DNA of 24,671 nucleotides. It comes from an uncultured Chitinophagaceae bacterium. GTDB taxonomy: Bacteria > Bacteroidota > Bacteroidia > Chitinophagales > Chitinophagaceae. Under the pieces are notes generated by a model that had not been told where the DNA came from, ran no database searches, and was given only the letters and a program-made list of their open reading frames with translations. The stretch spans positions 1-24,671 of the forward strand of contig CAKSVK010000032.1 of NCBI GenBank assembly GCA_934502905.1, in the 5' to 3' direction. Made by a program: the position numbers and the translations under genes. This document shows, piece after piece, positions 1-15,536 of the stretch; positions within the stretch are counted from its first letter, which is position 1; each line of letters begins with the position of its first letter.

Positions 1-243
1 TGCTCCTTTAAAAATGTCGGCAAATGTTGACCAATCGGGTTTGTCAGCATTTACATTAAGTTTCATATTGTCGTAATAACCTTGAATATCTTCTGTGTAT
101 GCACTCAAAGCTTCTAAAAAGTCGGGCAATGTTTTGTTTTCCCAGTTTTCAGGATTGTCCAACAAATCCTTGCGTAATAAGTCGAGAAACTTAATGAAAG
201 TGTGTCTGTCCGTTACTTTAAAGTCATTAAGCATATCGTTCAT
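1..243 (-). CDS. DUF7660 family protein, C-terminally truncated by the window edge
   Basis: The minus strand is open from an ATG at 243 to the window edge (81 codons, no stop reached). The protein begins MNDMLNDFKVTDRHTFIKFL and continues with the pattern WENKTLPDFLEALSAYTEDI, then a WSTFADIFKGA segment. The order (V-T-D near the start, W-E-N-x-T-L-x-x-F-L-E-A, then W-x-x-F-A) is what I know of the small DUF7660 family, whose biochemical role is unknown. The frame stays open upstream to a TGA at 295-297, but ATG 243 is preferred because it lies 14 bases after the GTTATACC junction of the attC-like repeat, as expected for a cassette ORF. A second in-frame ATG is three codons later. There is no recognisable ribosome-binding site. 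It is the next cassette-like gene after the 214-residue unknown. Family call fairly confident, function unknown. Confidence 0.7.
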   Translation of the reverse strand, partial: MNDMLNDFKVTDRHTFIKFLDLLRKDLLDNPENWENKTLPDFLEALSAYTEDIQGYYDNMKLNVNADKPDWSTFADIFKGA

Positions 244-250
244 AAAATCT

Positions 251-443
251 GGTATAACGTTTTGGGGCTTTCGGCTGTGCTGATATTCTGTGATTCATCC
301 GGCCCGAACTAAAGTCTAATATTGTTAATGATATATTCTTTTGCAGACCAGCGGACATTCAGCCGGAACTGAAATTGAATAACGGTATAATGTTGATGAT
401 TTATTCTTCTGCCAGCATAGCAGAAAACCGCCTGTTACCTGCC
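251..443 (-). repeat. attC-like imperfect inverted repeat (putative integron recombination site)
   Basis: Read on the minus strand, the left arm is GGCAGGTAAC (443-434) followed by AGGCGGTTTTC and TGCTATGCTG (to 413). The right arm is CAGCACAGCCGAAAGCCCC (282-264) followed by AAAACGTTATACC (263-251). The arms pair imperfectly over about 30 positions (GGTAAC with GTTATACC; GGCGGTTTTC-TGCTATGCTG with the complement of CAGCACAGCCGAAAGCCCC). An attC site has outer R''/R' boxes with AAC and GTT cores, inner L boxes and a long variable middle; this element has that layout. The upstream gene's TAA stop lies inside the R''-like box, a frequent feature of cassettes. The predicted crossover is between 258 and 257. 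At about 190 bp it is longer than most attC sites. Inference from layout; no integrase is visible. Confidence 0.55.
319..408 (-). repeat. Imperfect direct repeat pair inside the attC-like element
   Basis: The 22-base stretches at 319-340 and 387-408 differ at only three positions and are 68 bp apart. Similarity continues more weakly on the side of lower coordinates (a GTTC-GG-TGAAT-like segment after each copy on the minus strand). They occupy the loop (variable) part of the inverted repeat, suggesting internal duplication or a fusion of two related spacers. Confidence 0.6.
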
Positions 444-1079
444 GTTTATTTCATCGTAGTTCCAGTCAAATGATTCAGTGTCAAAGGGCGAGTCATATCT
501 TTCCTTCCAACCATCTAAACAGATCTGTTTCATACTTTTTAGCATCAGCGTTTTTAGTTCAAATACCTTTTGTGAAAAAATATCGTTATCCAAAAATGGT
601 GAATAGTAGGTCAACGATTGAATTCCGTTCCGTATATATAAGTTATAGTCTTTGTTTTGATTGCTTCTTTTAATGTTTGCAACATCTCTTTCAAGACTTA
701 TTCCTAAAGATTGAAATGTAAGCTTAGGAATACAATTTTGGATTTTAATTATTGCGTCATTCAATGGGTTAAATAATTCTTCATCGATATACCCAAGAAA
801 GATTCGTACATCTGGAAATTTTATTTCATTCCTCTTTTCCAAATCATTTTTCCTTTCCCAATGGGCAAACCTTATCACCGGCTTAAAAAAATTACTGTCT
901 TTGTTTATGGTCGAATCACTCCATAAAGAGATTTCTTCAATTCTGACTTCAGGAAAATCATTTGTGTAAATGGAAATATCTTTTTCAAGCCAGCAATTTC
1001 CAACATTTGGTGGTATAATCGATCTCGGACCGTCCAACAGTCTTTGGCCAATATTTCGAATTTGTAATATTTTATTCAA
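435..1079 (-). CDS. Hypothetical protein of a cassette-like unit (214 aa)
   Basis: I do not recognise this protein. It is 214 residues, soluble-looking, with no signal peptide or membrane segment, rich in Asn, Asp, Ile and Lys and in aromatic residues; the C-terminus is acidic and Trp-containing (SFDWNYDEINGR). The base composition is clearly more AT-rich than that of genes from 1320 onward, which suggests acquisition. The only start giving the full frame is TTG at 1079, since an in-frame TAA lies 15 bases upstream and the next in-frame ATG is far inside. A five-codon ORF (ATG at 1093) ends in a TGA that overlaps this TTG, so translation may be coupled. The gene fills the space between a GTTACCTGCC box (1109-1100) and its inverted copy, with its stop codon inside the latter. 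Immunity or defence function is possible for such genes but nothing in the sequence shows it. Confidence 0.6.
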   Translation of the reverse strand: MNKILQIRNIGQRLLDGPRSIIPPNVGNCWLEKDISIYTNDFPEVRIEEISLWSDSTINKDSNFFKPVIRFAHWERKNDLEKRNEIKFPDVRIFLGYIDEELFNPLNDAIIKIQNCIPKLTFQSLGISLERDVANIKRSNQNKDYNLYIRNGIQSLTYYSPFLDNDIFSQKVFELKTLMLKSMKQICLDGWKERYDSPFDTESFDWNYDEINGR

Positions 1080-1093
1080 GTTAATAGAGTCAT
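1076..1093 (-). promoter_or_regulatory. Five-codon leader ORF overlapping the TTG start of the unknown gene
   Basis: ATG ACT CTA TTA ACT TGA (minus strand, 1093 to 1076) encodes MTLLT. Its TGA overlaps the proposed TTG start at 1079-1077 by two bases. Class 1 integrons use a similar minicistron (ORF-11 in attI1) to help translate cassettes lacking a ribosome-binding site; whether this one does so is inference. A one-base indel in a formerly ATG-started gene would give the same picture. Confidence 0.3.
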
Positions 1094-1099
1094 TTTAAT

Positions 1100-1109
1100 G
1101 GCAGGTAAC
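1100..1109 (-). other. Putative 5' boundary of the gene cassette
   Basis: The minus strand reads GTTACCTGCC here, the exact reverse complement of GGCAGGTAAC at 443-434, so the two boxes bracket the 214-residue gene. In integron cassettes the first bases (TTRRRY) complete the R' box of the circular cassette and therefore match the cassette's own R'' box; that is what is seen. The flanking DNA up to 1319 is AT-rich and has no attC-like arm, so it could be an attI-like or secondary insertion site. Confidence 0.45.
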
Positions 1110-1319
1110 ATTTGTATTACTGCTATTACCTGAAATTACTCACTTTGCTTCAATATTGATAATCAGTATTTCAGCATTATATATTTTGTATTGTTTATAG
1201 CACCAATATAACTTTTTATCCGTGTACAAACGTTTATAAACTATTTTCTGCCGGCTGATTACCGGATCGGATTAATCAACGGATACTTATATAATCAACA
1301 GGTTTATTCCAGCAACAGA

Positions 1320-1775
1320 TCAGATCACTTTAAAGCTCATTGCCGGGGCCATCATCTTCTTGCCATCTTTCAGGCGGACGATGATCTCGTCAATGATCAT
1401 TTCATCACCTTTGGAGATATTGTCTTTAATGCTTTCACGCCAGTTTTGGCTCATTACGGGCTCCGTGAAATCGTTCACCCGCATATCGTTAACGATTTTT
1501 GTCTGCCCGGTTTCCGGGTCGGAGTAGCTGCTTTTGAATTTGTAGAAAACCCGGTACCGGATCACGGGATAGGTGTTACCCTTGTCATCCCGCACCACTA
1601 CGGCAGAGTCCACTGCACGGGATAATAAGTCCTGTGTTATGTTGCCTCCTTTAAACCCACCGATAGCCACCCATATCTTCGGAACGGCATTTGTCGCCGC
1701 GGACTTCGTGGTCTTCTGCTGGGCATTTACACCCAGGGCGGCCAAGAGGAACAACAATAAAAACAGGCGCTTCAT
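1320..1775 (-). CDS. Secreted protein resembling the C-terminal domain of gliding/secretion protein GldM
   Basis: The 151-residue product starts with a clear Sec signal peptide (MKRLFLLLFLLAALGVNA, likely cleaved before QQKTT), so it should act in the periplasm or outside. The mature part begins PKIWVAIGGFKGG and ends with GDEMIIDEIIVRLKDGKKMM followed by a hydrophobic strand. This ending resembles the last strands of GldM, where a G-D-x-x-x-x-x-x-I segment and a D-G turn precede the terminal strand. GldM is a full-length membrane protein of the type 9 secretion/gliding motor; this product has only one such domain and no membrane anchor beyond the signal peptide. No gldK/L/N gene is nearby. 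The ATG at 1775 directly starts the signal peptide. Secretion is confident; the GldM relation is by eye only. Confidence 0.6.
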   Translation of the reverse strand: MKRLFLLLFLLAALGVNAQQKTTKSAATNAVPKIWVAIGGFKGGNITQDLLSRAVDSAVVVRDDKGNTYPVIRYRVFYKFKSSYSDPETGQTKIVNDMRVNDFTEPVMSQNWRESIKDNISKGDEMIIDEIIVRLKDGKKMMAPAMSFKVI

Positions 1776-1969
1776 GTATTATAGCAGGTTTAATATGAAT
1801 ACAACAACGTATGCAAGATAGAATTTAGTATACTGAACTTTTGTTAAATATCAGGCTAGGGTGCATTGGGTCTCGGTGAAAAGCTTAAATCTTTGCTTTA
1901 TAATTAATGGGCTTTTTGATTGGTAAAAGTTAGAATGTTGCATCATCGAAACATTATCGTCAGCCAGCC

Positions 1970-2096
1970 GTATGTCCACCCCGGGAGGAGAGTCCGTCAG
2001 TATCGTCAGTAAATTTACAAAGGGGAGGATCTCCACCCCCCTCGCGTGTAACATTGATGTAGCTCTATGCTTTACTACCGCCAGCGGGGGACATAC
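1970..2096. repeat. 127-bp element with inverted ends and an internal palindrome
   Basis: The left end GTATGTCC (1970-1977) is perfectly inverted at the right end, GGACATAC (2089-2096), and each is followed inward by a run of C or G. Inside, 2022-2039 (GGGGAGGATCTCCACCCC) is itself almost palindromic. There is no ORF for a transposase, so this may be a small non-autonomous or REP-like element. Dispersed copies elsewhere in the genome would be expected. Confidence 0.45.
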
Positions 2097-2132
2097 CAGT
2101 TACTTCCTTATGCCGGCTGGTTGTATGTTTTT

Positions 2133-2215
2133 GAGAAGATGTGAACTTTATCGCGATATTTGTTTATCTCTTATTTTGTCGCGATGGGAATAGTTTTCAC
2201 CGAAGGCAACTTCTC
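2133..2215. repeat. Nested three-arm hairpin downstream of miaE
   Basis: Three complementary pairs nest in order: GAGAAG (2133-2138) with CTTCTC (2210-2215), GTGAA (2141-2145) with TTCAC (2196-2200), and ATCGCGA (2150-2156) with TCGCGAT (2179-2185). It lies just past the 3' end of miaE (minus strand) and could stabilise or end that transcript. No T-run typical of a simple terminator follows. Confidence 0.4.
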
Positions 2216-2234
2216 TCACCGTGGGTAAATGTGC

Positions 2235-2840
2235 TTAGTGGATGCGGTCACCCCTTACCTCGAGGTTTTTCATCACTTCCGCTTCGTATTGCAGCCATTC
2301 CTGCCAACGCTTCCTTACTTTTTCCTTATCTATATAGGTTTCTGCCAGGTCGATGAACAGGGTGTAATGTCCCGCTTCGCTTTCCATAAACCGGCGATAG
2401 AATTTCCGCAGGTAGGCATCCTTCAGTCCCTCGCTGAGCCGCTTGAAACGTTCGCAGCTACGGGCTTCTATCAGCGCCATGGTAAGCAACTGGTCCAGGA
2501 AACGATCCCCGGGGCTTCCGCCTTTTTGCTGGAATGCGATCAGCTTGTTGACGTATTCGTCTTTCCGCTGTTTCCCCAGCTTCAGGTTCCGTTTTTGCAG
2601 TTCCAGCAATACCAGCCGGAAATGTCCCCATTCTTCCGTAACAATCGGCGCCAGCTCTGTTACCAGCTTTTCTTTGTCATTGTATTTTTGTATCAGGCTG
2701 ATACAACTGGTGGCGGCCTTTTGCTCGCAATAGGCATGATCGGTAAGTATCTCCTCCATGCTCATGCCCGCCAGGTCTGTCCAGCGCGGGTCTGTTGGCA
2801 GTTGCAGCCCCAGAATATTTTTTACGTCCTGTTCATTCAT
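2235..2840 (-). CDS. miaE: tRNA-(ms2io6A)-hydroxylase MiaE
   Basis: MiaE is a di-iron monooxygenase that hydroxylates the isopentenyl group of ms2i6A at position 37 of certain tRNAs, giving ms2io6A. The 201-residue protein has the ferritin-like ligand pattern: E39 in HAYCEQKAA, E70 and H73 in TEEWGHF, E125 in LIEARSCERF, and E155 and H158 in ESEAGHY. The length matches the family. The ATG at 2840 begins MNEQDVKNILGL, a normal start for the family; no ribosome-binding site is apparent. It stands alone, about 400 bp from the divergent S45 gene. The substrate assumes a miaA/miaB pathway encoded elsewhere. Identification is confident from the metal-binding helices. Confidence 0.88.
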   Translation of the reverse strand: MNEQDVKNILGLQLPTDPRWTDLAGMSMEEILTDHAYCEQKAATSCISLIQKYNDKEKLVTELAPIVTEEWGHFRLVLLELQKRNLKLGKQRKDEYVNKLIAFQQKGGSPGDRFLDQLLTMALIEARSCERFKRLSEGLKDAYLRKFYRRFMESEAGHYTLFIDLAETYIDKEKVRKRWQEWLQYEAEVMKNLEVRGDRIH

Positions 2841-2890
2841 ATATCAATGGCTATTAGTATTGTGTTAATGAAAATGCGGCGAATAAATCT

Positions 2891-2918
2891 CCCGCAGATC
2901 CCGCGGATGTTCGCAGAA
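2891..2918. repeat. Short CGCAGAT-type tandem repeat
   Basis: Three near-copies, CGCAGAT (2893), CGCGGAT (2902) and CGCAGAA (2912), occur at a period of about 9-10 bp upstream of miaE. Similar CGCAGATT-rich intergenic strings are frequent in Bacteroidota genomes. Function unknown. Confidence 0.4.
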
Positions 2919-3072
2919 GTTGCTTAATAAAATCAGTATTTATCTGCATAACCTGCCGGAAAAGGAACATATAGTATTGAATTGACTTGGCATTAGCTGG
3001 TTTTTACCTGCAATATGGTTATTATTGTGCAAAAGTAATAAACCGGGTAATGACAGGGCATATCTACCTTCG

Positions 3073-3177
3073 ATGAAAAAGTTCGAATCTTCACAGGTGG
3101 GTGAAGATGCCCGGCTGCAGTGCCCGCTACCGGTTGGCATCTCACCGACCGGAAAATTGGTAGGTGCGAAAAACTGA
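3073..3177 (+). CDS. Possible 34-residue small protein or leader peptide
   Basis: An ATG at 3073 opens a 34-codon frame ending TGA at 3175-3177. The product begins MKKFESSQVGEDARL and has a CPLPVGISP middle; no known family is recognised. The frame coincides with a set of strong overlapping hairpins, and it ends 75 bases before the S45 acylase start, so it could be a leader ORF for that gene. An open frame of this length can also arise by chance, and other frames here are open too. Low confidence as a gene. Confidence 0.2.
   Translation: MKKFESSQVGEDARLQCPLPVGISPTGKLVGAKN
3087..3166 (+). promoter_or_regulatory. Overlapping, mutually exclusive hairpins upstream of the S45 gene
   Basis: ATCTTCAC (3087-3094) and GTGAAGAT (3101-3108) form a perfect 8-bp stem with a six-base loop. 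GATGCC (3106-3111) can instead pair with GGCATC (3136-3141). CCGGTTGG (3130-3137) can pair with CCGACCGG (3145-3152, with a G-T wobble). CACC and ACC (3143-3150) can pair with GGT and GGTG (3159-3166). Because the partners share bases, the stems compete, as in an RNA switch or attenuator. I could not match it to a known riboswitch consensus. Confidence 0.35.
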
Positions 3178-3252
3178 CATATGCCCGGGCATGACAAACC
3201 GTATGATGCCGTAGAATTTGTATTATACCCTGCAACCCAGTAATTTTAAATT

Positions 3253-5697
3253 ATGAAAATCCTTTATTGCTGTATATCCTTGCTGATCACCATTGCCTTA
3301 ATTGTATTGCTGGGCACCCGGTACGTGGCCCCGTTGCCGCTGGGTGAATTTTTAAGTCCCCAGCACGGTGTATGGTACCATGCCGAACCTTTCGACAAAA
3401 ACTTTGATGAAACCCTGGTAATACCGGCATTAAAGAATGATGTTGCTGTATATTTTGATGACCGGCTGGTGCCGCATATCGTTGCGGAAAGTGAAGAAGA
3501 TGGATTTTTCGTGCAGGGCTACCTGCATGCAAAGTTCCGGCTATGGCAGATGGAATTCCAGGTGTTTGCTGCCGGGGGAAGGATCAGTGAAATAGTGGGA
3601 GATGCGGCGCTGGACTTCGACCGGGGCAAAAGAAGGCTGGGCATGGTGTATGCCGCCGAAAATCTTTTAAAGGAAGCCGAGGCCAACCCACAAACCAGGA
3701 TGATGATGGATGCCTATACGGCAGGGGTGAATGCCTATATCGCTTCGCTGAAGAATGTAGCGCTTCCGGTAGAATACAAGCTGCTGGATTACCGGCCGGA
3801 ACCCTGGACAAACTTCAAGACTGCTTTGTTTATAAAGGAGATGACCCGGACACTGGCCGGCGGCGCAGATGACCTGGGACTGACAAAGCTCCGGGATTTC
3901 TTTGGTGATGCCACCGTACGCCTGCTTTTTCCGCAGGTGCAGGATTCTTTATCTCCCGTTGTTCCTCCGGGAACCGTATTCCCGCCACCCGCCGTGGTAC
4001 CGCAGCCACCTGCCTCTGCTGATTCGCTGTATTTTAAGACTGTAGCGTCGAACGGTGGTGCGCTGCACGAAATAGAAAAACCTGACAAGGATAACGGAAG
4101 CAATAACTGGGCGGTAAGCGGCAGCAAAACCGCCAGCGGCGCCCCGATCCTTTGCAATGATCCTCATCTCAATCTGACGTTGCCGGCTATCTGGTACGAA
4201 ATGCAATTGACCACACCTACCATGAATGCCTATGGCGTCAGCTTTCCGGGTACACCGGGCGTTATCATCGGGTTCAATGAAGACATTGCTTTCGGCTTTA
4301 CCAATTCATCCCGCGATGTGATGGATTTTTACGGCATCCGTTTTAAAGATGAAAGTAAAAAGCAGTACTATTTTGACAGTGCGTGGCTGGATAGTGATAT
4401 CCGCATCGAAGAAATAAAAGTAAAAGGCAAACCTGCCGTATATGATTCTGTAGCGTATACTGTTTTCGGTCCGGTGATGTATGATGCTGCTTTTCCCTCA
4501 AAGGAAAACGGCAGGGAAGCGCTTGCTGTTCGCTGGAAAGCACACGATCCTTCCAATGAGCTGCTGTTCTGGTATCACCTGGATCGCGCAAAAAACTATG
4601 ACGATTATAAAGCGTCCTTACAATATTTTACGGCGCCGGCCCAGAACGTGGTATTCGCTTCCCGGACGGGTGATATTGCCATCTGGCAGCAGGGAACTTT
4701 CCCGGCAAGGTGGAAAGGGCAGGGGCTCTATATCATGCCGGGCGAAGACAGCAGCTACATGTGGCAGGGGATGATACCAATGGAGGAAAATCCACACAGC
4801 GTTAACCCCGAGCGGGGGTTTGTGAGCAGCGCTAACCAGCGTCCGGCGGACAGCACTTATCCTTACTTTATTCCCGGGAATTATGACCTGTACAGGGGAA
4901 TAGCCATCAACAGGCATCTGAGTGAAATGCAGCATATAACGGTGAAGGATATGCTCAACCTGATGAATGATAACTATAATGTTTTTGCCGAGACAGCCCG
5001 CCCCGTTTTGCTGAAGCATATCAATGAAAATGTGCTGCAGGGAAAAGAGGTAGTATACCTGGAAGCCGTGAAGAAATGGTCGTTGCGGAATGATATAGAA
5101 GAGAAAGGTGCAACCTTGTTCCATATATGGTTTGATAAGTTTAAGAAGCAGGTATGGCAGGATGACCTGGAGCAGGCAGGGATGACAGAATATCCCTCCG
5201 ATGGCACATTAACGGAGATGCTGCTGCGGAATGATACTACCTTTGCTTTCGCGGATAATATCAATACTACTGAAACAGAAACGCTGTCGGATGTGGCAAC
5301 GGCGGCATTTAAAGAGATGGTGCCGGTTGCCGATTCGCTGGATGCGGCGGGGAGCCTGGCATGGGGTAAAAGTAAAAATACTTCGGTGTATCATTTGCTG
5401 GGAGACCGGGCGCTGCCTTTTGCAAGGACCGGGCTGCCGGTAGGTGGCGGAAAGCATATCATCAATGCCACTGCGCATAGTCACGGTCCCAGTTGGAAGA
5501 TGATCGTGCACTTACTGGAAACACCGGAAGCTTATGTAGTTTATCCCGGCGGACAATCCGGCAATCCCGGCAGTGTATACTACGACCAGTTTGTGGACAA
5601 ATGGGCTGCCGGTGAGCAATATGAAGCGTGGTTTTTAAAGAGGGGGGATAAGGTCCCGGAAAAAAAGGTTTGGGAAATGAATTTTAAGAAAAAATGA
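3253..5697 (+). CDS. Penicillin acylase family (peptidase S45) hydrolase, membrane-anchored
   Basis: S45 enzymes are N-terminal-nucleophile amidohydrolases that cleave acyl-amide bonds (beta-lactam side chains, acyl-homoserine lactones or other N-acyl compounds) after autocatalytic splitting into alpha and beta chains. The 814-residue protein has an N-terminal hydrophobic segment (about residues 4-22), so it is exported or anchored facing the periplasm. The alpha-chain region contains the GYLHAKFRLWQMEF signature (89-102). The processing site is G282/S283 in DNGSNNWAVSGSKTASG, with S283 the predicted nucleophile, followed by the conserved NDPHL (302-306). The C-terminus has the family's GQSGNPGSVYYDQF segment. 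Length is normal. The ATG at 3253 immediately precedes the anchor. It is followed after 10 bp by a small membrane protein and then a flavin monooxygenase, probably one operon. The substrate cannot be read from the sequence. Confidence 0.9.
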   Translation: MKILYCCISLLITIALIVLLGTRYVAPLPLGEFLSPQHGVWYHAEPFDKNFDETLVIPALKNDVAVYFDDRLVPHIVAESEEDGFFVQGYLHAKFRLWQMEFQVFAAGGRISEIVGDAALDFDRGKRRLGMVYAAENLLKEAEANPQTRMMMDAYTAGVNAYIASLKNVALPVEYKLLDYRPEPWTNFKTALFIKEMTRTLAGGADDLGLTKLRDFFGDATVRLLFPQVQDSLSPVVPPGTVFPPPAVVPQPPASADSLYFKTVASNGGALHEIEKPDKDNGSNNWAVSGSKTASGAPILCNDPHLNLTLPAIWYEMQLTTPTMNAYGVSFPGTPGVIIGFNEDIAFGFTNSSRDVMDFYGIRFKDESKKQYYFDSAWLDSDIRIEEIKVKGKPAVYDSVAYTVFGPVMYDAAFPSKENGREALAVRWKAHDPSNELLFWYHLDRAKNYDDYKASLQYFTAPAQNVVFASRTGDIAIWQQGTFPARWKGQGLYIMPGEDSSYMWQGMIPMEENPHSVNPERGFVSSANQRPADSTYPYFIPGNYDLYRGIAINRHLSEMQHITVKDMLNLMNDNYNVFAETARPVLLKHINENVLQGKEVVYLEAVKKWSLRNDIEEKGATLFHIWFDKFKKQVWQDDLEQAGMTEYPSDGTLTEMLLRNDTTFAFADNINTTETETLSDVATAAFKEMVPVADSLDAAGSLAWGKSKNTSVYHLLGDRALPFARTGLPVGGGKHIINATAHSHGPSWKMIVHLLETPEAYVVYPGGQSGNPGSVYYDQFVDKWAAGEQYEAWFLKRGDKVPEKKVWEMNFKKK

Positions 5698-5707
5698 TCA
5701 GCTTACA

Positions 5708-6082
5708 ATGAAATACTTTTTCTCGTTTGTGTTAATTGTCCTGTTTAGCTTTTTGCTTTCCTTGTACATGTCCTGGTGGTCTGTTGCCGTAGTGGCATTT
5801 TGCGTGTGTATGTGTTTGATAAAAAAGCCGCTGTGGGCCTTTGTTACCGGGTTTGTCTCTATCCTGCTGCTATGGGGAGGACTCGCCTGGTATATCAGCG
5901 CCGGTAATAATCATGTACTGGCTCATAAAATATCTTTATTGGTTTTGCGACAGGATAATCCTGTTATGCTGATTGGGTTATCCGCTTTTATAGGTGCGCT
6001 TACCGCCGGTTTTGCAGGGTTAAGCGGTACCCTGTTAGGCAGACTGGTATTTGAAAAAAAGCTGGAGACCACGGAGGTTTAA
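5708..6082 (+). CDS. Small integral membrane protein, function unknown
   Basis: The 124-residue product is mostly hydrophobic, with about four membrane segments (roughly 4-20, 23-38, 43-63 and 86-110) and a short charged C-terminal tail (FEKKLETTEV). No enzymatic motif is visible and I do not recognise the family. The ATG lies 10 bp after the S45 stop and the stop lies 12 bp before the monooxygenase start, so it is very likely cotranscribed with both. Confidence 0.7.
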   Translation: MKYFFSFVLIVLFSFLLSLYMSWWSVAVVAFCVCMCLIKKPLWAFVTGFVSILLLWGGLAWYISAGNNHVLAHKISLLVLRQDNPVMLIGLSAFIGALTAGFAGLSGTLLGRLVFEKKLETTEV

Positions 6083-6094
6083 CATTATGCATCC

Positions 6095-7231
6095 ATGGGA
6101 GGATCTATAGCGATAGTGGGAGCGGGAATAGGCGGGCTGACTGCCGCGCTTATGCTGCGGCAAAAAGGTTTTACGGTATCGGTATATGAAGCGGCGCCGG
6201 AAATAAAGCCGGTGGGAGCGGGAATTGTAATGGCAAACAATGCCATGCAGGTGTTTAAGAAGCTGGGCATACAGGACCGTATCGAATATGCCGGCAATAA
6301 AGTATCGGTGATGGAGATCACGGATGAACAGCTAAGACCGCTGTCAATGATGCGGCCGGAAAAATTCGGGCAACAATATGGTGTGTGTAATATAGCTATT
6401 CACCGGGCCGACCTGCAAAAGATCCTGGCTGAAACGTTTGGAAATGAAAATATCCACCTGTCAAAAAGACTTTCTTCTATTGAGCAGGGCAACAGATTAA
6501 AATTACATTTTGAAGATAATACGTCGGCGACGGCCGGTGTACTGATCGGTGCGGATGGCATCAGGTCTGTGGTCAGGCAGCATATCCTGGATGGTACCGT
6601 CATACGCGGCAGCGGACAGGTCTGCTGGCGGGGCATTTGCAAAACCGGTGTCCCGGAAAAATACCGGCATACAGCGGTAGAGGCCTGGGGCAGGGGCAAA
6701 CGGTTTGGGTTTGTGCAGTTGGACGGTGAAAAGGTATACTGGTATGCCGTGATCAACAAGGGCCTGTTGAAAGAACAAAAGGATATACCTGCCTTATTCA
6801 CCGGGTTTCACCCTGATTTGCTTGACATGGCAGAGAAGACAGGCATGGAAAATATTCATTTCAGTGAAATTGCAGACCTGAAGCCGCTCAGCAGGTGGAG
6901 CGCCGGTAATATATGCCTGTTGGGTGATGCGGCACATGCTACCACACCTAACCTGGGACAGGGTGCCTGCCAGGCAGTGGAGGATGCTTATGCATTGGGA
7001 GTGTTGCTTTCTCCCGGTAATAATATTGAAAATGCTTTTCGATCATATGAGAAGATGCGGGTCAAAAAAGCGCATGCTGTTGTAAGCAGAAGCCGGATAC
7101 TGGGGCAAATAGCACATATCGAAAATGGCGCGGGCAGATGGCTCCGGAATGCGTTGATGAAGCTGACGCCTTCGTCTGCTGCTGACCGGCAGTTGCAATG
7201 GCTGTTCGATATCGGGTATATAAAGGAATAG
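6095..7231 (+). CDS. FAD-dependent monooxygenase (aromatic hydroxylase / salicylate hydroxylase-like)
   Basis: Class A flavoprotein monooxygenases use NAD(P)H and O2 to hydroxylate aromatic or related substrates. The 378-residue protein has the three family signatures: the dinucleotide-binding GAGIGG (residues 9-14), the DG motif GADGIRS (152-158), and the second FAD motif GDAAHATTPNLGQGA (277-291). Its size and the run QAVEDAYALG fit the FAD_binding_3 group (salicylate hydroxylase, 3-hydroxybenzoate 6-hydroxylase, zeaxanthin epoxidase-like). ATG 6095 is chosen because it leads straight into the FAD-binding beta strand; an upstream ATG at 6087 is in another frame. It is third in the S45 operon and converges on an extradiol-dioxygenase-family gene. 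The substrate is unknown. Confidence 0.88.
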   Translation: MGGSIAIVGAGIGGLTAALMLRQKGFTVSVYEAAPEIKPVGAGIVMANNAMQVFKKLGIQDRIEYAGNKVSVMEITDEQLRPLSMMRPEKFGQQYGVCNIAIHRADLQKILAETFGNENIHLSKRLSSIEQGNRLKLHFEDNTSATAGVLIGADGIRSVVRQHILDGTVIRGSGQVCWRGICKTGVPEKYRHTAVEAWGRGKRFGFVQLDGEKVYWYAVINKGLLKEQKDIPALFTGFHPDLLDMAEKTGMENIHFSEIADLKPLSRWSAGNICLLGDAAHATTPNLGQGACQAVEDAYALGVLLSPGNNIENAFRSYEKMRVKKAHAVVSRSRILGQIAHIENGAGRWLRNALMKLTPSSAADRQLQWLFDIGYIKE

Positions 7232-7248
7232 CAGGTCACAAGTTGCAG

Positions 7249-7264
7249 CTTGCGCGACCGCGAG
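7249..7264. terminator. Hairpin between convergent genes (weak terminator candidate)
   Basis: CTTGCG (7249-7254) pairs with CGCGAG (7259-7264) around a four-base loop. It lies 18 bases past the monooxygenase stop and 42 bases before the convergent ygiD stop. There is no strong T-run, so termination is only suggested by position. Confidence 0.3.
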
Positions 7265-7305
7265 ACGGAACTTCTTACTATTTTATGGTCCTGACATTTT
7301 ATCTT

Positions 7306-8139
7306 TTACCCAAACCTTACCGATGTCATATTCAGGGACCCGGCTACCAGCTTATCATTAAAGAAGGATATTTCATCTTTATTATCCTTCAGACTGAGTG
7401 TGTACAGCAGCGGGTAATAGTGATCCGGCGTAGGAATAGCGAGTTTGGCTGATTTGCTCAACGATTCGTAATGGATCAGCGCTTTATCATCCCGGTCCAT
7501 GATTTTGTTTTTGAACAGTTCGTGCATTTCTATCGCCCAGTCATAACCGTAGTTGGGTACATCAAATTTATCCCAGGCTATCATGCGCAGGTTATGCACC
7601 ATGTTGCCGCTGCCGATGATCAATACGCCTTTTTTGCGTAATGTTACCAGCTCCCTGGAAAGGTTATAGTGATATGCCGCTGGTTTGGAATAATCAATGC
7701 TCAGCTGCAGCACCGGTATATTGGCATCCGGATACATCCATTTGACTACTGTCCAGGCGCCATGATCCAATCCCCAGTCATGGTCCAGTCCTATGTTTGT
7801 GGATTTGACCAACTCCTGTGTTTCTTCCGCAAGCCCGGGATTGCCCGGTGCAGGGTATTGCACTTTGTACAGCTCTTCCGGGAAACCACCGAAGTCGTGT
7901 ATGGTTTTGGGAGCGTTCATGGCGGTTACCTGTGTGCCATTGGTAAGCCAGTGAGCGGATATCACCAGCACTGCTTTGGGAACCGGCAATTCCTTACCCA
8001 ACTGCTGCCAATAGCTGCTGAACTCGTTATATTGTATACCATTCATGGGGGAACCATGCCCTACAAACAGCACCGGCATCCGGATACCCTGTTCATCCAT
8101 GTTTTGTGTAAAAGCATTAAAAGCTGATATGCTGCTCAT
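7306..8139 (-). CDS. ygiD: 4,5-DOPA-extradiol-dioxygenase-type protein YgiD (LigB family)
   Basis: The 277-residue protein belongs to the class III extradiol dioxygenase (LigB) superfamily, YgiD branch. Members open aromatic rings of catechols such as L-DOPA; the bacterial physiological substrate is poorly known and the metal may be zinc or iron. Expected ligand histidines are present: H28 in FVGHGSP, H63 in ISAHW, H182 in GNMVHNLR and H240 in TPDHYYP, plus H126 in GLDHGAW. Length matches E. coli YgiD. A shorter start at M14 or M21 is possible, since the family core begins RMPVLFVGHGSP. A TATCTTTG -7 box lies at 8182-8175. It is convergent with the aromatic monooxygenase, which hints at a shared substrate class but proves nothing. 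Confidence 0.87.
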   Translation of the reverse strand: MSSISAFNAFTQNMDEQGIRMPVLFVGHGSPMNGIQYNEFSSYWQQLGKELPVPKAVLVISAHWLTNGTQVTAMNAPKTIHDFGGFPEELYKVQYPAPGNPGLAEETQELVKSTNIGLDHDWGLDHGAWTVVKWMYPDANIPVLQLSIDYSKPAAYHYNLSRELVTLRKKGVLIIGSGNMVHNLRMIAWDKFDVPNYGYDWAIEMHELFKNKIMDRDDKALIHYESLSKSAKLAIPTPDHYYPLLYTLSLKDNKDEISFFNDKLVAGSLNMTSVRFG

Positions 8140-8174
8140 TACCGGTAATCCTTTTTTATAATTGTAATTACAGG

Positions 8175-8182
8175 CAAAGATA
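8175..8182 (-). promoter_or_regulatory. Bacteroidota-type -7 box for ygiD
   Basis: The minus strand reads TATCTTTG, a perfect TAnnTTTG match, 35 bases upstream of the ygiD ATG. No TTG element at the usual -33 spacing is evident, so this rests on the -7 box alone. Confidence 0.4.
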
Positions 8183-8305
8183 CTATGCCAGCAAAGGGAG
8201 CATATTGATGCAGGATAAGAAATCCAGGATTGCGAAAGGCTGATCAGAGATCGCCTGTTTCTAAAGAGAACCTATCAGAAATCCCAGGTTCAGAAATCAG
8301 CAATT

Positions 8306-9691
8306 TTATCCTTTCTTCATTTCCGCAAAAAACTTATGAAAATAGGGGATGGTTTCAATGCCTTTGTAATAGTTGAACACATCGTATTTTTCATTGGGCG
8401 AATGCAGGTTATCGCTGTCGAGCCCGAAGCCCATGAATACGATCTTGATCCCCAGCTCCTGCTCAAACAGGGCGCAAATGGGAATACTGCCGCCGCCCCG
8501 TACCGGGATGGGGGATTTTCCAAACGTGGTTTCAATAGCTTTGGCTGCTGCCTGGTAGGCAGTGGAATCAATGGGCGTCATATAAGGCTCCCCGCCATGG
8601 TGCTCGCTGGCCTTTACCGTAACCCCTTCAGGAGCAATGCTGGTGAAATATTTCAGCAGCTTCTCCGTGATATCTGCTGAAGACTGGTTGGGTACCAGGC
8701 GCGCCGATATTTTGGCATATGCCTTAGCAGGTAAAACGGTTTTGGCACCTTCACCTGTATAACCACCCCAGATGCCGTTTACTTCCAGGGTAGGACGGAT
8801 ACCGGTCCTTTCATTGGTGGTATACCCTTTTTCGCCCCACAAGGCCGGGATCCCCAGGTCTTTCCTGTATTCCTCTTCGCTGAACGGCGCTTCCGCCATC
8901 AGCTTTCTTTCTTCCGGTGTTGCCTCCACCACATCGTCATAAAAACCCGGAATGGTAATATGGTTATTTTCATCGTGGCAGGACGCGATCATTTTTGCGA
9001 GCATCGTAGCCGGGTTGGCGACCGCACCGCCATATACACCACTGTGCAGGTCCCTGTTGGGGCCGGTCACTTCCACTTCTATATAAGACAATCCCCTTAC
9101 ACCAATGTCGATGGAGGGCGTGTCCATGCTGATCATAGCCGTATCGCTGATCAGTATCACATCCGCCTTCAGCAGGTCTTTGTGCTGTTTTACAAATTTT
9201 GCAAGATGGGGTGAGCCGATCTCTTCTTCCCCTTCTATAATGAACTTGATATTGGTAGAGAGGCTGTTGGTTTTTACGAGGGTCTCCAGTGCCTTCACAT
9301 GCATATAGAACTGACCCTTATCATCACAGGAGCCACGGGCAAATATCTTGCCGTCTTTGATCACCGGATCGAAGGGGCCGCTGTTCCAAAGCTCCAGCGG
9401 ATCTGCAGGTTGCACATCGTAATGACCATATACCAGCACCGTTGGTTGGGAGGCATCGGTTATTTTTTCCGCATACACTACCGGGTGCCCCTCTGTCGGA
9501 TATACCTCGGCTTTACCGGCGCCCGCTTCCAGCAATCTCTGCCGGACTACTTCCGCACAGGCAACCATATCATTCCTGTTTTCTGTTTTCGCGCTCACAG
9601 ACGGTATCCTCAGCAATTCCAGTAATTCTTCCAGGAACCTTTCTTTATTAGCTGTCTGGTAATCTTTCCACTCTTTCATAGTAACAATCAT
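8306..9691 (-). CDS. M20 family dipeptidase
   Basis: M20 metallopeptidases use two zinc ions to hydrolyse dipeptides or related amides in the cytoplasm. The 461-residue protein shows the ordered motifs: VLVYGHYDVQPAD (H90, D92), GSCDDKGQ (bridging Asp 123/124), EGEEEIGSP (catalytic Glu/ligand Glu, 153-157), ISDTAM (D183), the lid-domain DLHSGVYGG, and a C-terminal LHSPNEKYDV with the last ligand His. This is the carnosinase-like (CNDP) branch typical of Bacteroidota. The start at 9691 gives MIVTMKEW; M5 is an equally good start. It lies 22 bp downstream of ppc and is probably in the same transcript, without an obvious functional link. Confidence 0.9.
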   Translation of the reverse strand: MIVTMKEWKDYQTANKERFLEELLELLRIPSVSAKTENRNDMVACAEVVRQRLLEAGAGKAEVYPTEGHPVVYAEKITDASQPTVLVYGHYDVQPADPLELWNSGPFDPVIKDGKIFARGSCDDKGQFYMHVKALETLVKTNSLSTNIKFIIEGEEEIGSPHLAKFVKQHKDLLKADVILISDTAMISMDTPSIDIGVRGLSYIEVEVTGPNRDLHSGVYGGAVANPATMLAKMIASCHDENNHITIPGFYDDVVEATPEERKLMAEAPFSEEEYRKDLGIPALWGEKGYTTNERTGIRPTLEVNGIWGGYTGEGAKTVLPAKAYAKISARLVPNQSSADITEKLLKYFTSIAPEGVTVKASEHHGGEPYMTPIDSTAYQAAAKAIETTFGKSPIPVRGGGSIPICALFEQELGIKIVFMGFGLDSDNLHSPNEKYDVFNYYKGIETIPYFHKFFAEMKKG

Positions 9692-9713
9692 TTTAAGTCA
9701 TTAAATACCTGCA

Positions 9714-12290
9714 TCAGGCAGAGTTCCTTCCGGCGTTGATGATACCGAAAGAACACCGCATCACCAGCTTTTCATATGTTTTCTTCAGGGGAGAGGCTCC
9801 CTGCTCTTCTTCCAGCTCCTGCACGCGCCTGATGGCATATTGCTGGATGGTCACCAGCGGCAACACGATCCTTTCCCGCATCTCTACCGACAGCTGCTCT
9901 ACCGGGTAGTCTGCCATTAGCTCGTTCTTGCCGGTCAGCTTAAAGATATAACGTTTGGTGAGTTCATACTCATCGTGAATTTTATTCCATATCTCTCCAT
10001 ACCGGGGATCTTTGGAAAGGAAAGTGGTCATGGGGAAATAACATTTCTTCATAGACATCTCGCAGTTCCCTATCAGCGTTTTGAAGAAAGTGGAATTGTC
10101 ATACAGTGCCTTTACCTCACTCCATCGACCGGCTTTATCCAGCGCTTTAAATGCAGCGCCTACTCCGTAATAACCGGTAACATTCTGTTTGAGCTGGCTC
10201 CATGCGCCTACAAAAGGGATCGCCCTCAAATCTTTCAGCGACAGTTTACCGGAGCCTCCCCTTTTTGCCGGGCGACTGCCGATATTGGTCTCCGCGTAAA
10301 AGCGAAGCGGGCTGGCATATGCAAGGTAGTCCAGGAATTTCGGATCGTTCTTTAGATCTGCGTATGCTTCTAATCCTATCTCCGACAACTGCTGGATCAG
10401 CTCTTTTTCATTTTCTTTTAAAATGGTTTTCGGTGACGAGAATACCTCATTGGATATACCCGCGTTGATCAGCTGTTCGATGTTGAACTGTGCAGAGTCG
10501 ATGGTACCGAAGTTGGAGCTGACCGTTTGCCCCTGTATCGTCAGTTGTATTTCTTCATTCTCTATATTTTTCCCTAGCGAGGCGTAAAATTTGTGGGTTT
10601 TACCACCACCGCGGGCCGGGGGACCACCGCGACCATCGAAGAAGACCACGTTCACACCGTTTTGTCTTGAAATGGCTGTCAGCTCTTCCTTTGCTTTGTA
10701 GATACTCCAGTTGGCCATCAGGTAACCGCCGTCCTTGGTACCGTCGGAGAAGCCCAGCATAATGGTTTGAATATTATTCCGGCGTTCCAGGTGCTGCCGG
10801 TAAGCCGGCAGGTTATACAGCTTTTGCATGATGCCTGCTGCATGCTGCAGGTCGTCTATCGTTTCAAAAAGAGGTACAATATCGATCGTCAGGTTTTCAG
10901 GCTTCCATCCGCTCATCAGGAACAGTCCATATACTTCAATGGCATTCAACGCACTGTTGCACTGGCTGATGATGTAGCGGTCGCAACCTTCTTCCCCGTT
11001 GGAGGCCTGGATCTGCTTAAGCCGTCCCATTACTTCCAGGGTATCTTTATGTACAGGGTCTTCGAGCACTTCCGGCTTCACCGTTTTCTTTACTTTCAGG
11101 AGTAGCTGTATCTTCCCGTCTTCATTTTGCTCCGTATAACCGGGTAATACGTTTGTGCTTGTGGCAATTTTTTCCACCATCCTGCTGTGTACGGTGCTGT
11201 CCTGCCGGATGTCCAGCGATGCGAAATGGAATCCGAATACTTCCACCTTGTTGATCAGGGTCTCCACCATTTCTACAAACAGTCCGTTGTGTTCGTGGAT
11301 CAGGGTTTGCCGGATATCGTTGAGCGTACCCAGTATTTCCGCTTTGGTGAGGTCGCTGATATGCCCGGGGATAAAGACATTATTATAGAGCTTCGTTTCC
11401 AGCTCCTGCAAAGGCATTTCAACACCCTTGAAAGTAAGTCTTCTTTTCAGGCGGCGTACTTCCCTGAAATATGATTTCAGGATGCTTTCCCTGAGGGCGC
11501 CGGCCACTTTAACGGTTGTATCTGTGGTTACAAAAGGATTACCGTCACGGTCGCCACCCGGCCAAAAACCCATCCGTATGATCGGGTTCTCTGAGCTCAC
11601 TTCCGGCATATTTGCCTTTATTCCCGAAAGGATGCGGCCGGCAGCAGGATAAAAAATATTTTCGAGGTACCAGATGAGGCTCACCGCCTCATCATAGGGC
11701 GTTGGCTTTACCTTTTTAAAGAAAGGTGTTTTTCCCAACTGCTGCAGGTACATGTTTATGTTATTGAGGTTATTTTCCGCCATTGCCTTGGTAAGGTCAT
11801 GTATGATGCCCAGCACAGCACCCGGATAAAACTGGGTAGGATGTGCCGTTAGTACCAGCCTTATATTGAAGGATTCAATTTTCTTTTTAACCTCTTCTTC
11901 TTTTTCGAATTTGGTAATATCGGAGAAAAGGCTTTTCAGCGTGCCCGCGCCATTCATGTCGTTCACCGACGTAAATGCTGCATCTTCCAGGGCGTCAAAA
12001 AGCACCACCTGCCTTTCTACGTACTGTACAAAGCGGAACAGCAGGTCCAGCCTCTCTTCTTCCTGGGTATAGGAAGTATGCTTACGAAAAAAGTCGTCTA
12101 TAATCTTAGCCGGGCTTTTCTTTTTGGCATATTCTTCTTCACAGTAGCTCAATAACAAAGCCAGTAAAATGCCCGTTTTTTCAATACGGTGGAAGGGAAG
12201 CGAGGTAAAAAGACTGTTATACAACTGAAATTTTCTGCCAACCAGATTCCAAAACTGCCCTAAGGGAGACACTGAAGAACTAATAGTCAT
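9714..12290 (-). CDS. ppc: Phosphoenolpyruvate carboxylase
   Basis: PEP carboxylase forms oxaloacetate from phosphoenolpyruvate and bicarbonate, refilling the TCA cycle. Family signatures are present in order over 858 residues: LVLTAHPTQ with catalytic H150, the GGDRDGNPFVT segment (245-255), LGFSDGTKDGGYLMANW (512-528), and the glycine-rich catalytic loop FDGRGGPPARGGGKTH (551-566). Length is normal. The C-terminus, usually an invariant RNTG, here reads AGRNSA. The ATG at 12290 is followed by MTISSSVSPLG. A 227-bp gap separates it from the upstream kinase gene, so it may have its own promoter; I could not identify one. The M20 peptidase follows at 22 bp. Confidence 0.95.
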   Translation of the reverse strand: MTISSSVSPLGQFWNLVGRKFQLYNSLFTSLPFHRIEKTGILLALLLSYCEEEYAKKKSPAKIIDDFFRKHTSYTQEEERLDLLFRFVQYVERQVVLFDALEDAAFTSVNDMNGAGTLKSLFSDITKFEKEEEVKKKIESFNIRLVLTAHPTQFYPGAVLGIIHDLTKAMAENNLNNINMYLQQLGKTPFFKKVKPTPYDEAVSLIWYLENIFYPAAGRILSGIKANMPEVSSENPIIRMGFWPGGDRDGNPFVTTDTTVKVAGALRESILKSYFREVRRLKRRLTFKGVEMPLQELETKLYNNVFIPGHISDLTKAEILGTLNDIRQTLIHEHNGLFVEMVETLINKVEVFGFHFASLDIRQDSTVHSRMVEKIATSTNVLPGYTEQNEDGKIQLLLKVKKTVKPEVLEDPVHKDTLEVMGRLKQIQASNGEEGCDRYIISQCNSALNAIEVYGLFLMSGWKPENLTIDIVPLFETIDDLQHAAGIMQKLYNLPAYRQHLERRNNIQTIMLGFSDGTKDGGYLMANWSIYKAKEELTAISRQNGVNVVFFDGRGGPPARGGGKTHKFYASLGKNIENEEIQLTIQGQTVSSNFGTIDSAQFNIEQLINAGISNEVFSSPKTILKENEKELIQQLSEIGLEAYADLKNDPKFLDYLAYASPLRFYAETNIGSRPAKRGGSGKLSLKDLRAIPFVGAWSQLKQNVTGYYGVGAAFKALDKAGRWSEVKALYDNSTFFKTLIGNCEMSMKKCYFPMTTFLSKDPRYGEIWNKIHDEYELTKRYIFKLTGKNELMADYPVEQLSVEMRERIVLPLVTIQQYAIRRVQELEEEQGASPLKKTYEKLVMRCSFGIINAGRNSA

Positions 12291-12517
12291 TGTTTTATTT
12301 CTTAATAATTTCTACTTGTTTTTATTTGGTGTGCATTGAACCTGCGATATACTGGTATCAGCCAAAAACAGGCGCTGCAACAAGGATGCAATCGTACTGC
12401 CGTCACTTTCGTTGTCGACGGCTCATATGTTAACATGGCAAACAGGTATTGTATAAGGCGCGTGAAATTAACTAAAAAAGAGGAAATATAGGCCTGGACA
12501 GAAGAATTTGCTGAAAC

Positions 12518-13927
12518 TTATCCTCCTGTTTGGGACAGGGGTATTTCAAAAAGAATGCTGACCCCGTTCTGGCTAATGATCTCCAGCCTGCCTTTTAAAT
12601 ATCCCATTCTTTTTTTCATGTTCCGCAGGCCATTTCCCCCGATCCTGCTCAGGTCGCTGTCTATTCCCCTGCCATTATCCTGTATGGTTATTTGCAGGGT
12701 ATCTGTTATCGTACAATCAATATCCACCCGGGTGGCGCCCGAGTGTTTTACAACATTGTGAAGCGCCTCTTTAACAGAAAGAAAGATATGCCTCCTGGTT
12801 TCGCCGGAAATGCTGACAGGCGGAATATGTTGCGGCACAGACATATTGCATTCAAAACCAAACTGGTCCATAAAATTCATGGCATATTCCCTTATATAAG
12901 AGATCAGCCCGGGCAGGTCGTCGTTGAGGTGGTTAAGCGACCATACAATCTCGTTCATGGACTGCACCAGCCGTTCCGAATTTTCTGAAATACGCTTCAG
13001 TTCCTGTACCGGGGTATCTCCCATTTTCTGCTGCACCATATCGCTCAGCAGCTTGATGCCGGCCAGCCCGTCTCCCAGCTCTACTTTAAGTTCGTGCGAA
13101 ATCTCGTCCCGCACCGCATTCAGGTTCAGCAGTTGCTTTTCGTTCTCTGCCAGCTGTTTATTGATGAGTTGCCCCGACTGGAGGGAAGAGTCAAATATCT
13201 TTTTCGACTTGTATATCAGTCCTATGTTCAGGCAGATCAGCTCCAGTATCACCCCGATCTGTAAAAAGAAAAAGCTGGACAGCTTTGGCTGATGCATCTG
13301 CGGCTCAAACAGGCGGAAGATCATGGCGCCGATGGCGCCGGTCCCTACTATTATGCTGCCTGTCACCAGGTATTTTGCCAGTGCTGTTCCTGTCATTAAG
13401 ATCAGTATAAGGACGTACAGAAAGAACACAAAAAAAGAAAGGGAAATGAAAAGGTGGATCAGCCGTTCGGTGAAATGGACTTCTCTTGAAATAAACCAGA
13501 ATGCAGTAAAGACCGCATATACAAGCATGAAACGGCTGACGATCCTGATCCATTTATCCAGCCCTGGAACAATGCTGGGGGCATCTACAAACAACCGTCC
13601 GAAACCGATATAAAAATAAAGCGCTATAAATACGACGGTACTGTTTAACACCGATTCGGGCAGCCGAAGATTTCCGACCGGTAAAAAATGAGTTTCTACC
13701 CGGTATTGCAGGAAAAAATACACCCCCATGATCACTGAATACAGGGCATAAAACAGATACTCCCGCCGGCGGAAAAAATACCATTGCACAAGCGAATACA
13801 ATACCTGGAAGGTCAATATGCCTAAAATGAGGGGCTCTGACAGCATTTCAATAGGTTGCCGGTTGAAAATAACGGTGGTACGAAAGTAGTCATTTCCTGT
13901 CACCAATGACGGATAATCATCCTGCAT
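12518..13927 (-). CDS. 7TM sensor histidine-kinase-like protein with Lys at the phosphoacceptor position (paralog 1)
   Basis: The N-terminal half carries about seven membrane helices (residues about 32-240, counting from a GTG at 13930), similar to 7TMR-DISM sensors. A linker coiled coil (about 245-272) and a HisKA_3-type dimerisation helix follow. ATP-binding motifs look complete: N box KEALHN (387-392), G1 DNGRG (418-422) and G2 GGNGLRN (431-437). The family's ELHDELG-like phosphoacceptor box reads ELKVELG, placing Lys 282 where His should be; another His (279) lies one helical turn earlier. The paralog shares this. ATG 13927 is used; GTG 13930 is adjacent, and the MLSEPL start common to both paralogs would be ATG 13846. 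No response regulator is adjacent. Likely a pseudokinase, or a kinase using another residue. Confidence 0.82.
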   Translation of the reverse strand: MQDDYPSLVTGNDYFRTTVIFNRQPIEMLSEPLILGILTFQVLYSLVQWYFFRRREYLFYALYSVIMGVYFFLQYRVETHFLPVGNLRLPESVLNSTVVFIALYFYIGFGRLFVDAPSIVPGLDKWIRIVSRFMLVYAVFTAFWFISREVHFTERLIHLFISLSFFVFFLYVLILILMTGTALAKYLVTGSIIVGTGAIGAMIFRLFEPQMHQPKLSSFFFLQIGVILELICLNIGLIYKSKKIFDSSLQSGQLINKQLAENEKQLLNLNAVRDEISHELKVELGDGLAGIKLLSDMVQQKMGDTPVQELKRISENSERLVQSMNEIVWSLNHLNDDLPGLISYIREYAMNFMDQFGFECNMSVPQHIPPVSISGETRRHIFLSVKEALHNVVKHSGATRVDIDCTITDTLQITIQDNGRGIDSDLSRIGGNGLRNMKKRMGYLKGRLEIISQNGVSILFEIPLSQTGG

Positions 13928-14157
13928 CACAACTTACCGATTTGTGCTGCAAAATCAGTGACGTGATGAACTACCCGATGGCAGAAGGGACGGGCTGTAG
14001 CGGATAAATTCAACTGCTGCCGACGACGTGTGGGGCAGCGGCCGCCCGGTTACCTATCCTCACACCACTTTCCCAGGGTACTGATTCATAAGCGCTTATT
14101 CCATAGGTGTTGTCTTTCCTTGCGCCGTATTGACGGGCTGTGTGTGTTGCATTGCCC

Positions 14158-15480: not shown

Positions 15481-15536
15481 AGATACCAGCTTGTGCAACC
15501 CCGTAAAGATATTGATATCGCGTTGAATGTCTCCGA

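Follow-up and report, generated by a model that had tools for sequence, protein, structure and literature searches.

The first 1,109 nucleotides of a 24,671-nucleotide stretch of DNA from an uncultured Chitinophagaceae bacterium (contig CAKSVK010000032.1; the whole stretch is referred to here as the window) probably form the proximal end of a mobile gene cassette array that belongs to a divergent integron-like system; on the basis of sequence comparison, we put the probability of this reading at roughly 0.8. The first-pass annotation of this DNA proposed an integron-cassette-like organisation, and that proposal is supported by matched boxes, by homology of the attC-like element to elements in other genomes and by a cassette rule that holds in related arrays. 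We also favour, with less assurance, a broader reading: a second cassette-capture system, independent of IntI, in Chitinophagaceae and probably in more Bacteroidota. It would have attC and attI types of its own and a separate lineage of recombinase, which manages without the IntI domain that is regarded as essential; its arrays, labelled XerD and in some cases plasmid-borne, would occur in perhaps a third of family genomes, and it may have been the first packager of tet(X3). Searches for integrons depend on IntI and on known attC shapes, and the recombinase described here fails the IntI model; the family nonetheless bears the positional marks of cassette capture. If the broader reading is true, a large unseen reservoir of mobile genes is added, and the need of the IntI insertion for folded-site recombination comes into question.

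A complete cassette and its attC-like element

All features of the array lie on the minus strand. One complete gene cassette of 851 bp runs from a GTT at 1109 to the last base ahead of the next GTT (1109–259), delimited by the matched boxes GTTACCTGCC/GGCAGGTAAC and by element homology. Its first bases, GTTACCTGCC (1109–1100), are the R′ box of the junction and agree at 10 of 10 positions with the R″ box GGCAGGTAAC (443–434), an exact inverted copy. The two boxes bracket an ORF of 214 amino acids with a TTG start (1079–435), the TAA stop codon of which falls within the R″ box. The attC-like element of about 190 nt (443–251), which was identified with a profile built without the window and by arm covariation in the family, consists of an R″-spacer-L″ arm, a long middle and an L′-spacer-R′ arm. 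The L″ arm with its spacer, AGGCGGTTTTCTGCTATGCTGGC, lies at 433–411 and the L′ arm with its spacer, ATCAGCACAGCCGAAAGCCCCAAAAC, at 284–259, both delimited from the sequence, an alignment of 22 elements and covariation; the R′ box GTTATACC (258–251) forms the first bases of a second cassette. Only the start of that cassette is present (258–1), with a DUF7660 gene (PF24693, E = 1e-27) that begins with ATG 15 bases on, at 243, and is cut by the contig end. The window thus ends inside this gene, and the GGTATAAC box expected as the partner of GTTATACC would lie after its stop codon, beyond the window. Ahead of the first cassette, the sequence AATTTCAGGTAATAGCAGTAATACAAAT|GTT (1137–1110) forms an attI-like junction, recognized with a junction weight matrix and by alignment to the junction of the closest relative.

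Much of this outline had been drawn in the first-pass annotation. We confirm the positions of the two boxes around the ORF, the stop codon within the 443–434 box, an imperfect inverted repeat of about 190 nt that ends AAAAC|GTTATACC, the identity of the next gene as DUF7660 close to the junction, and the count of one complete cassette and the start of a second. On the fold that was proposed there as a check, neither strand of 251–443 folds unusually well (z = −1.45 and −1.31). An exact 10-nt box pair alone is also not rare by chance: GTT…AAC pairs 300–1500 nt apart were observed once per strand of the window versus 0.38 expected. The window element lies far beyond chance because of its homology to elements of other genomes. 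A profile of 31 such elements matches the window element end to end at 442–255 (E = 3.7e-20), and does so at E = 1.9e-21 when the closest genome is also left out; elsewhere in the window the best match reaches only E = 0.07, and in the reversed window, used as a control, E = 0.58. An Rfam search of window positions 1–2000 returned nothing at E ≤ 1, and blastn of the element against plasmids and phages gave only matches at E of about 0.6. Searches with DNA patterns had 0, 0 and 1 matches in viral contigs, the last judged by eye to be chance, and 0 matches in genome contigs.

The MiaE gene next door (2235–2840) was used to fetch 80 loci, mostly from Chitinophagaceae, of which 71 reach at least 2.5 kb past MiaE on the array side. 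The closest relative (L002, from the metagenome-assembled genome ACE_BAC12; 92% in MiaE) matches the window piecewise from 1311 to 15655. On the same side of MiaE it has short genes over several kilobases, and the elements among them lie at 12258, 13020 and 15909; this array occupies the same chromosomal place as that of the window with other cassettes, and the L002 genome is without DUF7660. The window contains one complete attC-like site and L002 three, and no IntI-profile match is listed in that stretch of L002. In L003 (86% in MiaE), three long open frames stand at this place (11337–15447), and no element was found there. Elements at E ≤ 1e-3 occur in two of the 80 loci, L002 and L010, the latter with its element on the other side of MiaE. 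Conserved synteny and a lack of further repeats of this shape had been named in advance as arguing against cassettes; instead, only L002 has elements at this place, so the array is a polymorphic island rather than conserved synteny, and dozens of such repeats occur in relatives.

Elements, the cassette rule and cargo in related arrays

A BLAST search with one L002 element found matches in 10 of 11 relatives. Query positions of about 5–73 and 240–265 correspond to other repeats, so matches to these parts are to be disregarded as elements. With a four-member profile, 115 matches were obtained over 1.78 Mb (overlapping loci included), and a 32-member profile gave 136, or 143 with filters off. Matches keep one orientation per array, with 16/16 in L132, 22/22 in L133 and L134 together and 9/9 in L135, although some of these matches are halves of one element. 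The consensus boxes of the family are GCCAAC and GTTGGC.

Across 22 aligned elements, we found the inverted arms that characterize attC sites (R″-L″…L′-R′): AAC/GTT boxes and a covarying arm of 17 pairs, interrupted in several elements by a spacer of 3 and 4 unpaired bases. Standard pairs fill 86.5% of arm cells versus 79.5 in shuffled alignments. The covariation score is 0.206 versus 0.095 ± 0.013, and 25 arm cells are doubly changed versus 8.0, neither value being reached in any of 500 shuffles. Two weaker measures are less striking: pairs changed on both sides (10 versus 5.9; reached by 7 of 500 shuffles) and further pair types (20 versus 16.4; reached by 31 of 500). Slid registers, used as controls, all give far lower covariation than the true arm register. 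Because the arm structure was read from the sequences themselves, the weight rests on these shuffles and slides rather than on the raw percentage, with the caveat that related sequences can exceed such shuffles.

The start of an integron cassette matches its own downstream R″ box, which is a hallmark of such cassettes. For each element, the bases that follow its GTT were set against the R″ box of the next element, read as its reverse complement. Pairs separated by more than 3.5 kb, and those in which an element end is cut off, were excluded; poor pairs (0–3 of 7) were kept. Among 53 neighbouring pairs, 5.34 of 7 variable bases agree versus 2.99 ± 0.17 after random re-pairing (maximum of 3.66 in 10,000), and the same bases agree with the element's own box at only 3.05 positions (64 elements). 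The result was replicated in 30 pairs from seven other arrays (6.13 of 7 versus 3.43 ± 0.24, maximum of 4.43; own-box control of 3.51 in 37 elements). Box pairs are exact at all 7 scored bases in 18/53 and 17/30 cases, respectively. A matched box pair thus belongs to each individual cassette, as in integrons.

In 14 arrays with gaps of 250–2,500 bp between elements, the longest ORF lies on the element strand in 69 of 70 cassettes, and the median gap is 836 bp. A Pfam scan of 31 cassette proteins (that of the window and 30 chosen from L132, L135, L215 and L219) matched 16 families with one member each, including Shedu SduA_C, a YhcG nuclease, a beta-lactamase-fold protein, AraC and peptidase S41. 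The 214-amino-acid ORF of the window matches no Pfam family over cut-off. Only 10 proteins, itself included, reach E ≤ 1e-5 in a word-limited search of 5.8 billion, and the gene was not found in 185 family genomes. Relatives of the DUF7660 protein that are up to 85% identical occur in named Elizabethkingia and Chryseobacterium, which belong to another order; this likeness fits with movement between orders. DUF7660 genes are present in 14 of 294 family genomes, mostly outside the element type of the window: among the 15 loci concerned, weak element matches are confined to L181 and L120, and nothing convincing was seen when box pairs were sought around them. No DUF7660 was found in viral contigs.

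A tyrosine recombinase beside related arrays

In a search for IntI (TIGR02249) in 11 relatives, several of the best sub-threshold proteins adjoin arrays. These recombinases are mostly 385–410 amino acids long (about 395) and have Pfam Phage_integrase and SAM_4 domains; their roughly 100 N-terminal residues match no Pfam family over cut-off. Of 7,999 candidate proteins that were scored, 7,789 have E ≤ 1e-20, and the names among 120 listed matches are tyrosine-type recombinase, site-specific integrase or XerD, bar one that is garbled. Against NCBIfam, the proteins score 175–186 bits with the IntI model (cut-off of 265) and 195–206 bits with the XerA model NF040815 (cut-off of 220). The additional domain specific to IntI, the role of which is treated in PMC9668308, was not found in the recombinase of relatives: alignment to 2a3v skips the insertion, and the region of about 181–240 of the TIGR02249 model is unmatched. 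The spacing between the KGxKDR and HxLRH motifs is 59–61 residues in 17 of 18 recombinase rows (one is not measurable), versus 100 in two measurable IntI and 63–64 in two Xer proteins. According to PMC8138268, the insertion is not fully conserved in an integron-like subgroup, yet is essential for integron function.

In a phylogenetic tree, 17 recombinase rows group together (96/96); six IntI (100/100) and three Xer sequences (98/97) fall into clades of their own. The row labelled L235_IntI1, which groups with Xer, is a second ORF of that locus that passed the motif filter, and L208 and L172 stand on long branches and are of unsure placement. The closest solved structures by sequence are 5hxy (E = 2.7e-37) and 4a8e (E = 6.6e-37). 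A structure model of the recombinase (m10e6c475b744) has a mean pLDDT of 77.6 and a pTM of 0.47; a fold search ranks XerA first and IntI4 fifth, and because of the pTM value this search is only supportive. The suggestion in the first-pass annotation that the system may be divergent proved right, and the non-IntI recombinase adjoining related arrays was invisible from the window, in which no recombinase was found beside the array in 24 kb.

Linkage between recombinase and array was assessed in a sample of 294 family genomes (element at E ≤ 1e-6, recombinase at E ≤ 1e-70, two element places scored per genome). Of these genomes, 110 carry the element and 98 the recombinase, and 56 carry the two together (odds ratio of 3.5, Fisher P = 1e-6); 42 of the 98 have no element match and 54 of the 110 no recombinase match. 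In 22 cases a listed element stands on the same contig as a listed recombinase. The distance is no more than 15 kb for 18 of these elements, on 15 contigs, and every one of the 18 is downstream of the recombinase and on its strand; for the other four it is 53 kb to 1.7 Mb. The more distant recombinase loci L163, L165–L171 and L173 gave no or only weak element matches. L127 has a recombinase without an array downstream, and one weak element upstream on the other strand.

Relatives also have an attI-like junction beside the recombinase gene; the window has the junction and no recombinase. Measured from the recombinase stop codon, or from the last matched base where the recombinase is broken, the box of the first cassette recurs in at least 9 of 10 bases at 103–244 bp after the recombinase in 12 of 14 scored recombinase–array loci (L121, L124, L128, L129, L161, L162, L164, L174, L216, L217, L218 and L219). 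It lies farther off in two loci: 1,441 bp away in L215 and 2,025 bp away in L122, where another element end appears to precede it. The L161 junction has TAC instead of AAC, and the expected position was used for its box; L165 is outside the scored loci. A motif like GCGTATWTTTACGT|GTT is common, by eye, to many junctions. With a matrix made from the junctions of other genomes, the window junction scores highest among the 315 GTT sites of its strand, and it still does so without L002 in the matrix (6.45 versus 2.1 for the next). Leave-one-out scoring likewise ranks 13 of 14 other junctions best, and the L219 junction scores like background. The junctions of the window and L002 align without gaps from AATTTC on, with 14 of 28 bases identical.

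The following mechanism would account for these features. A cassette would comprise one gene and one attC-like element, from a GTT to just before the next GTT, its first bases being the reverse complement of the R″ box that starts its own element; such a match, which is statistically supported in relatives, is expected if the cassette was once a circle closed at that site. By their position, cassettes would join at the attI-like junction, which in related arrays is mostly 0.1–0.25 kb downstream of the co-oriented recombinase. Insertion (attI × attC) and excision (attC × attC), with crossover at the GTT, are most likely catalysed by this non-IntI recombinase. The distance of about 150 nt between the arms and their hairpin-like covariation make it probable that the attC-like site acts as a folded single strand or as a cruciform, which would resemble integrons. 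The arrays of the window and L002 keep a junction and have no recombinase beside it, so we read them as recombinase-less cassette islands that start at attI-like junctions and that may depend on a recombinase in trans or be fossil.

Alternative explanations and known systems

The system appears to work like an integron. Since the recombinase of relatives is without the feature that defines integron integrases, we do not class the system as an IntI integron. An ordinary integron array (CALIN), with a classical IntI elsewhere in the genome or one that acted in another host, would have the same cassette logic, and other Bacteroidota often have true IntI (over cut-off in 84 of 296 genomes of a phylum sample). 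It is nonetheless improbable here: at E ≤ 1e-60, a single one of the 294 family genomes has IntI, in a copy with an internal stop, and none of 11 near relatives has it over cut-off; 15 IntI loci of other Bacteroidota contain no element of the window family at E ≤ 0.01; and arrays of this family adjoin another recombinase. Shuffling by XerC/XerD in the manner of dif modules, with the recombinase of about 395 amino acids incidental, is very unlikely. Xer-like proteins are also present in these genomes and the recombinase scores high with XerA. The pdif modules of Acinetobacter plasmids are likewise site-bounded mobile gene modules moved by tyrosine recombinases. Their XerC/XerD sites, however, are 28 bp long and in inverse orientation (PMC7530245), whereas the sites here are about 190 nt long with a single orientation per array, and the position of the recombinase is tight.

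Hardly credible, in our view, is that the elements are dispersed repeats (REP/MITE or terminator hairpins) lying by chance between orphan genes. The elements are long inverted repeats, some with small palindromic repeats inside, but a MITE or terminator predicts neither strict co-orientation nor downstream bases that match the box of copy i + 1 rather than that of copy i; the matched pair bounds a gene and its element and follows the cassette rule. We regard as unlikely, if worth keeping in mind, that the arrays are real but extinct, with degrading recombinases and cassettes that are now immobile. Broken or partial recombinases do adjoin arrays in L124, L128, L129 and L164, but intact frames do so in L121, L122, L161, L215–L218 and L219, many box pairs are still exact (fractions given above) and array content differs between close relatives.

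The divergent integron-like system that we favour resembles sedentary chromosomal integrons and CALINs in several respects: single-orientation cassettes of about one gene, matched R″ and cassette-start boxes, a GTT junction, arms split by an unpaired spacer, an attI-like junction beside a tyrosine recombinase and orphan cargo. It differs in its recombinase, which lacks the IntI insertion, has an extra N-terminal part of about 100 residues and is transcribed towards the array, whereas classical intI is transcribed away from it. It differs also in its sites of about 190 nt, which have their own arm sequence and do not keep the classical core boxes RYYYAAC/GTTRRRY: AGGTAAC and GTTATAC of the window both fail this core. 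Archaeal XerA and the NF040815 family, named 'site-specific tyrosine recombinase/integron integrase', provide the closest solved structures by sequence (5hxy and 4a8e) and bit scores of 195–206, but the recombinase stays below the cut-off of NF040815, has an extra N-terminal domain and adjoins arrays. Tyrosine recombinases paired with IS91, such as that of the Rhizobium plasmid locus L208, have a related catalytic domain and also lack the IntI insertion (59 residues), but that of L208 precedes an IS91 transposase and the locus has no element of the window family. A literature search over titles and the beginnings of abstracts, with most subscription papers and all bioRxiv preprints out of scope, returned no description of the system.

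Several further observations concern integrases, plasmids and repeats. The IntI count in our phylum sample can be set against the one complete integron for Bacteroidetes proper, in Salinibacter ruber, that is reported in PMC9024848; Bacteroidota are among the phyla listed with integrons in PMC8618304. In the region 7980–17029 of L206, a plasmid of Chryseobacterium sp. SNU WT5, a recombinase is followed by genes between matched boxes (GTTATACGAT at 9300 and ATCGTATAAC at 10378; GTTACCTACC at 10506 and GATAGGTAAC at 11094) and by other long hairpin elements, as judged by eye. The element profile of the window family gives no match in this locus, which by eye looks like a plasmid-borne relative of the system. 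In the region 4034–6060 of L207, a plasmid of Acinetobacter sp. YH16056_T, a truncated member of the recombinase family (50% identity over query residues 179–387) lies directly upstream of tet(X3) and in the same orientation. The sequence GTTATGTGCC (4799) stands 18 bases ahead of the tet(X3) start codon, and the left part of a window-family element follows right after the stop codon (profile E = 0.0024), with a 7/10 box match; the right half of the element was not seen there. The order xerD–tet(X) is already known (PMC7530245). The cassette likeness at tet(X3), which is not part of that known description, is a lead only.

In the region 10359–19901 of L172, a distant recombinase (36% identity) precedes a series of same-strand repeats of its own, together with short genes. 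A hairpin repeat of about 65 bp (TTCTCCGCAG…CTGCGG) lies beside elements in L002 (12169–12233, 14458, 14723 and 15820) and also elsewhere in related genomes, and a REP-like sequence, GCCCGCCTGACCGGACGGGC, occurs inside elements. Farther along the window (12518–15498), two adjacent histidine-kinase-like genes of 470 and 446 amino acids, similar by eye, stand in tandem.
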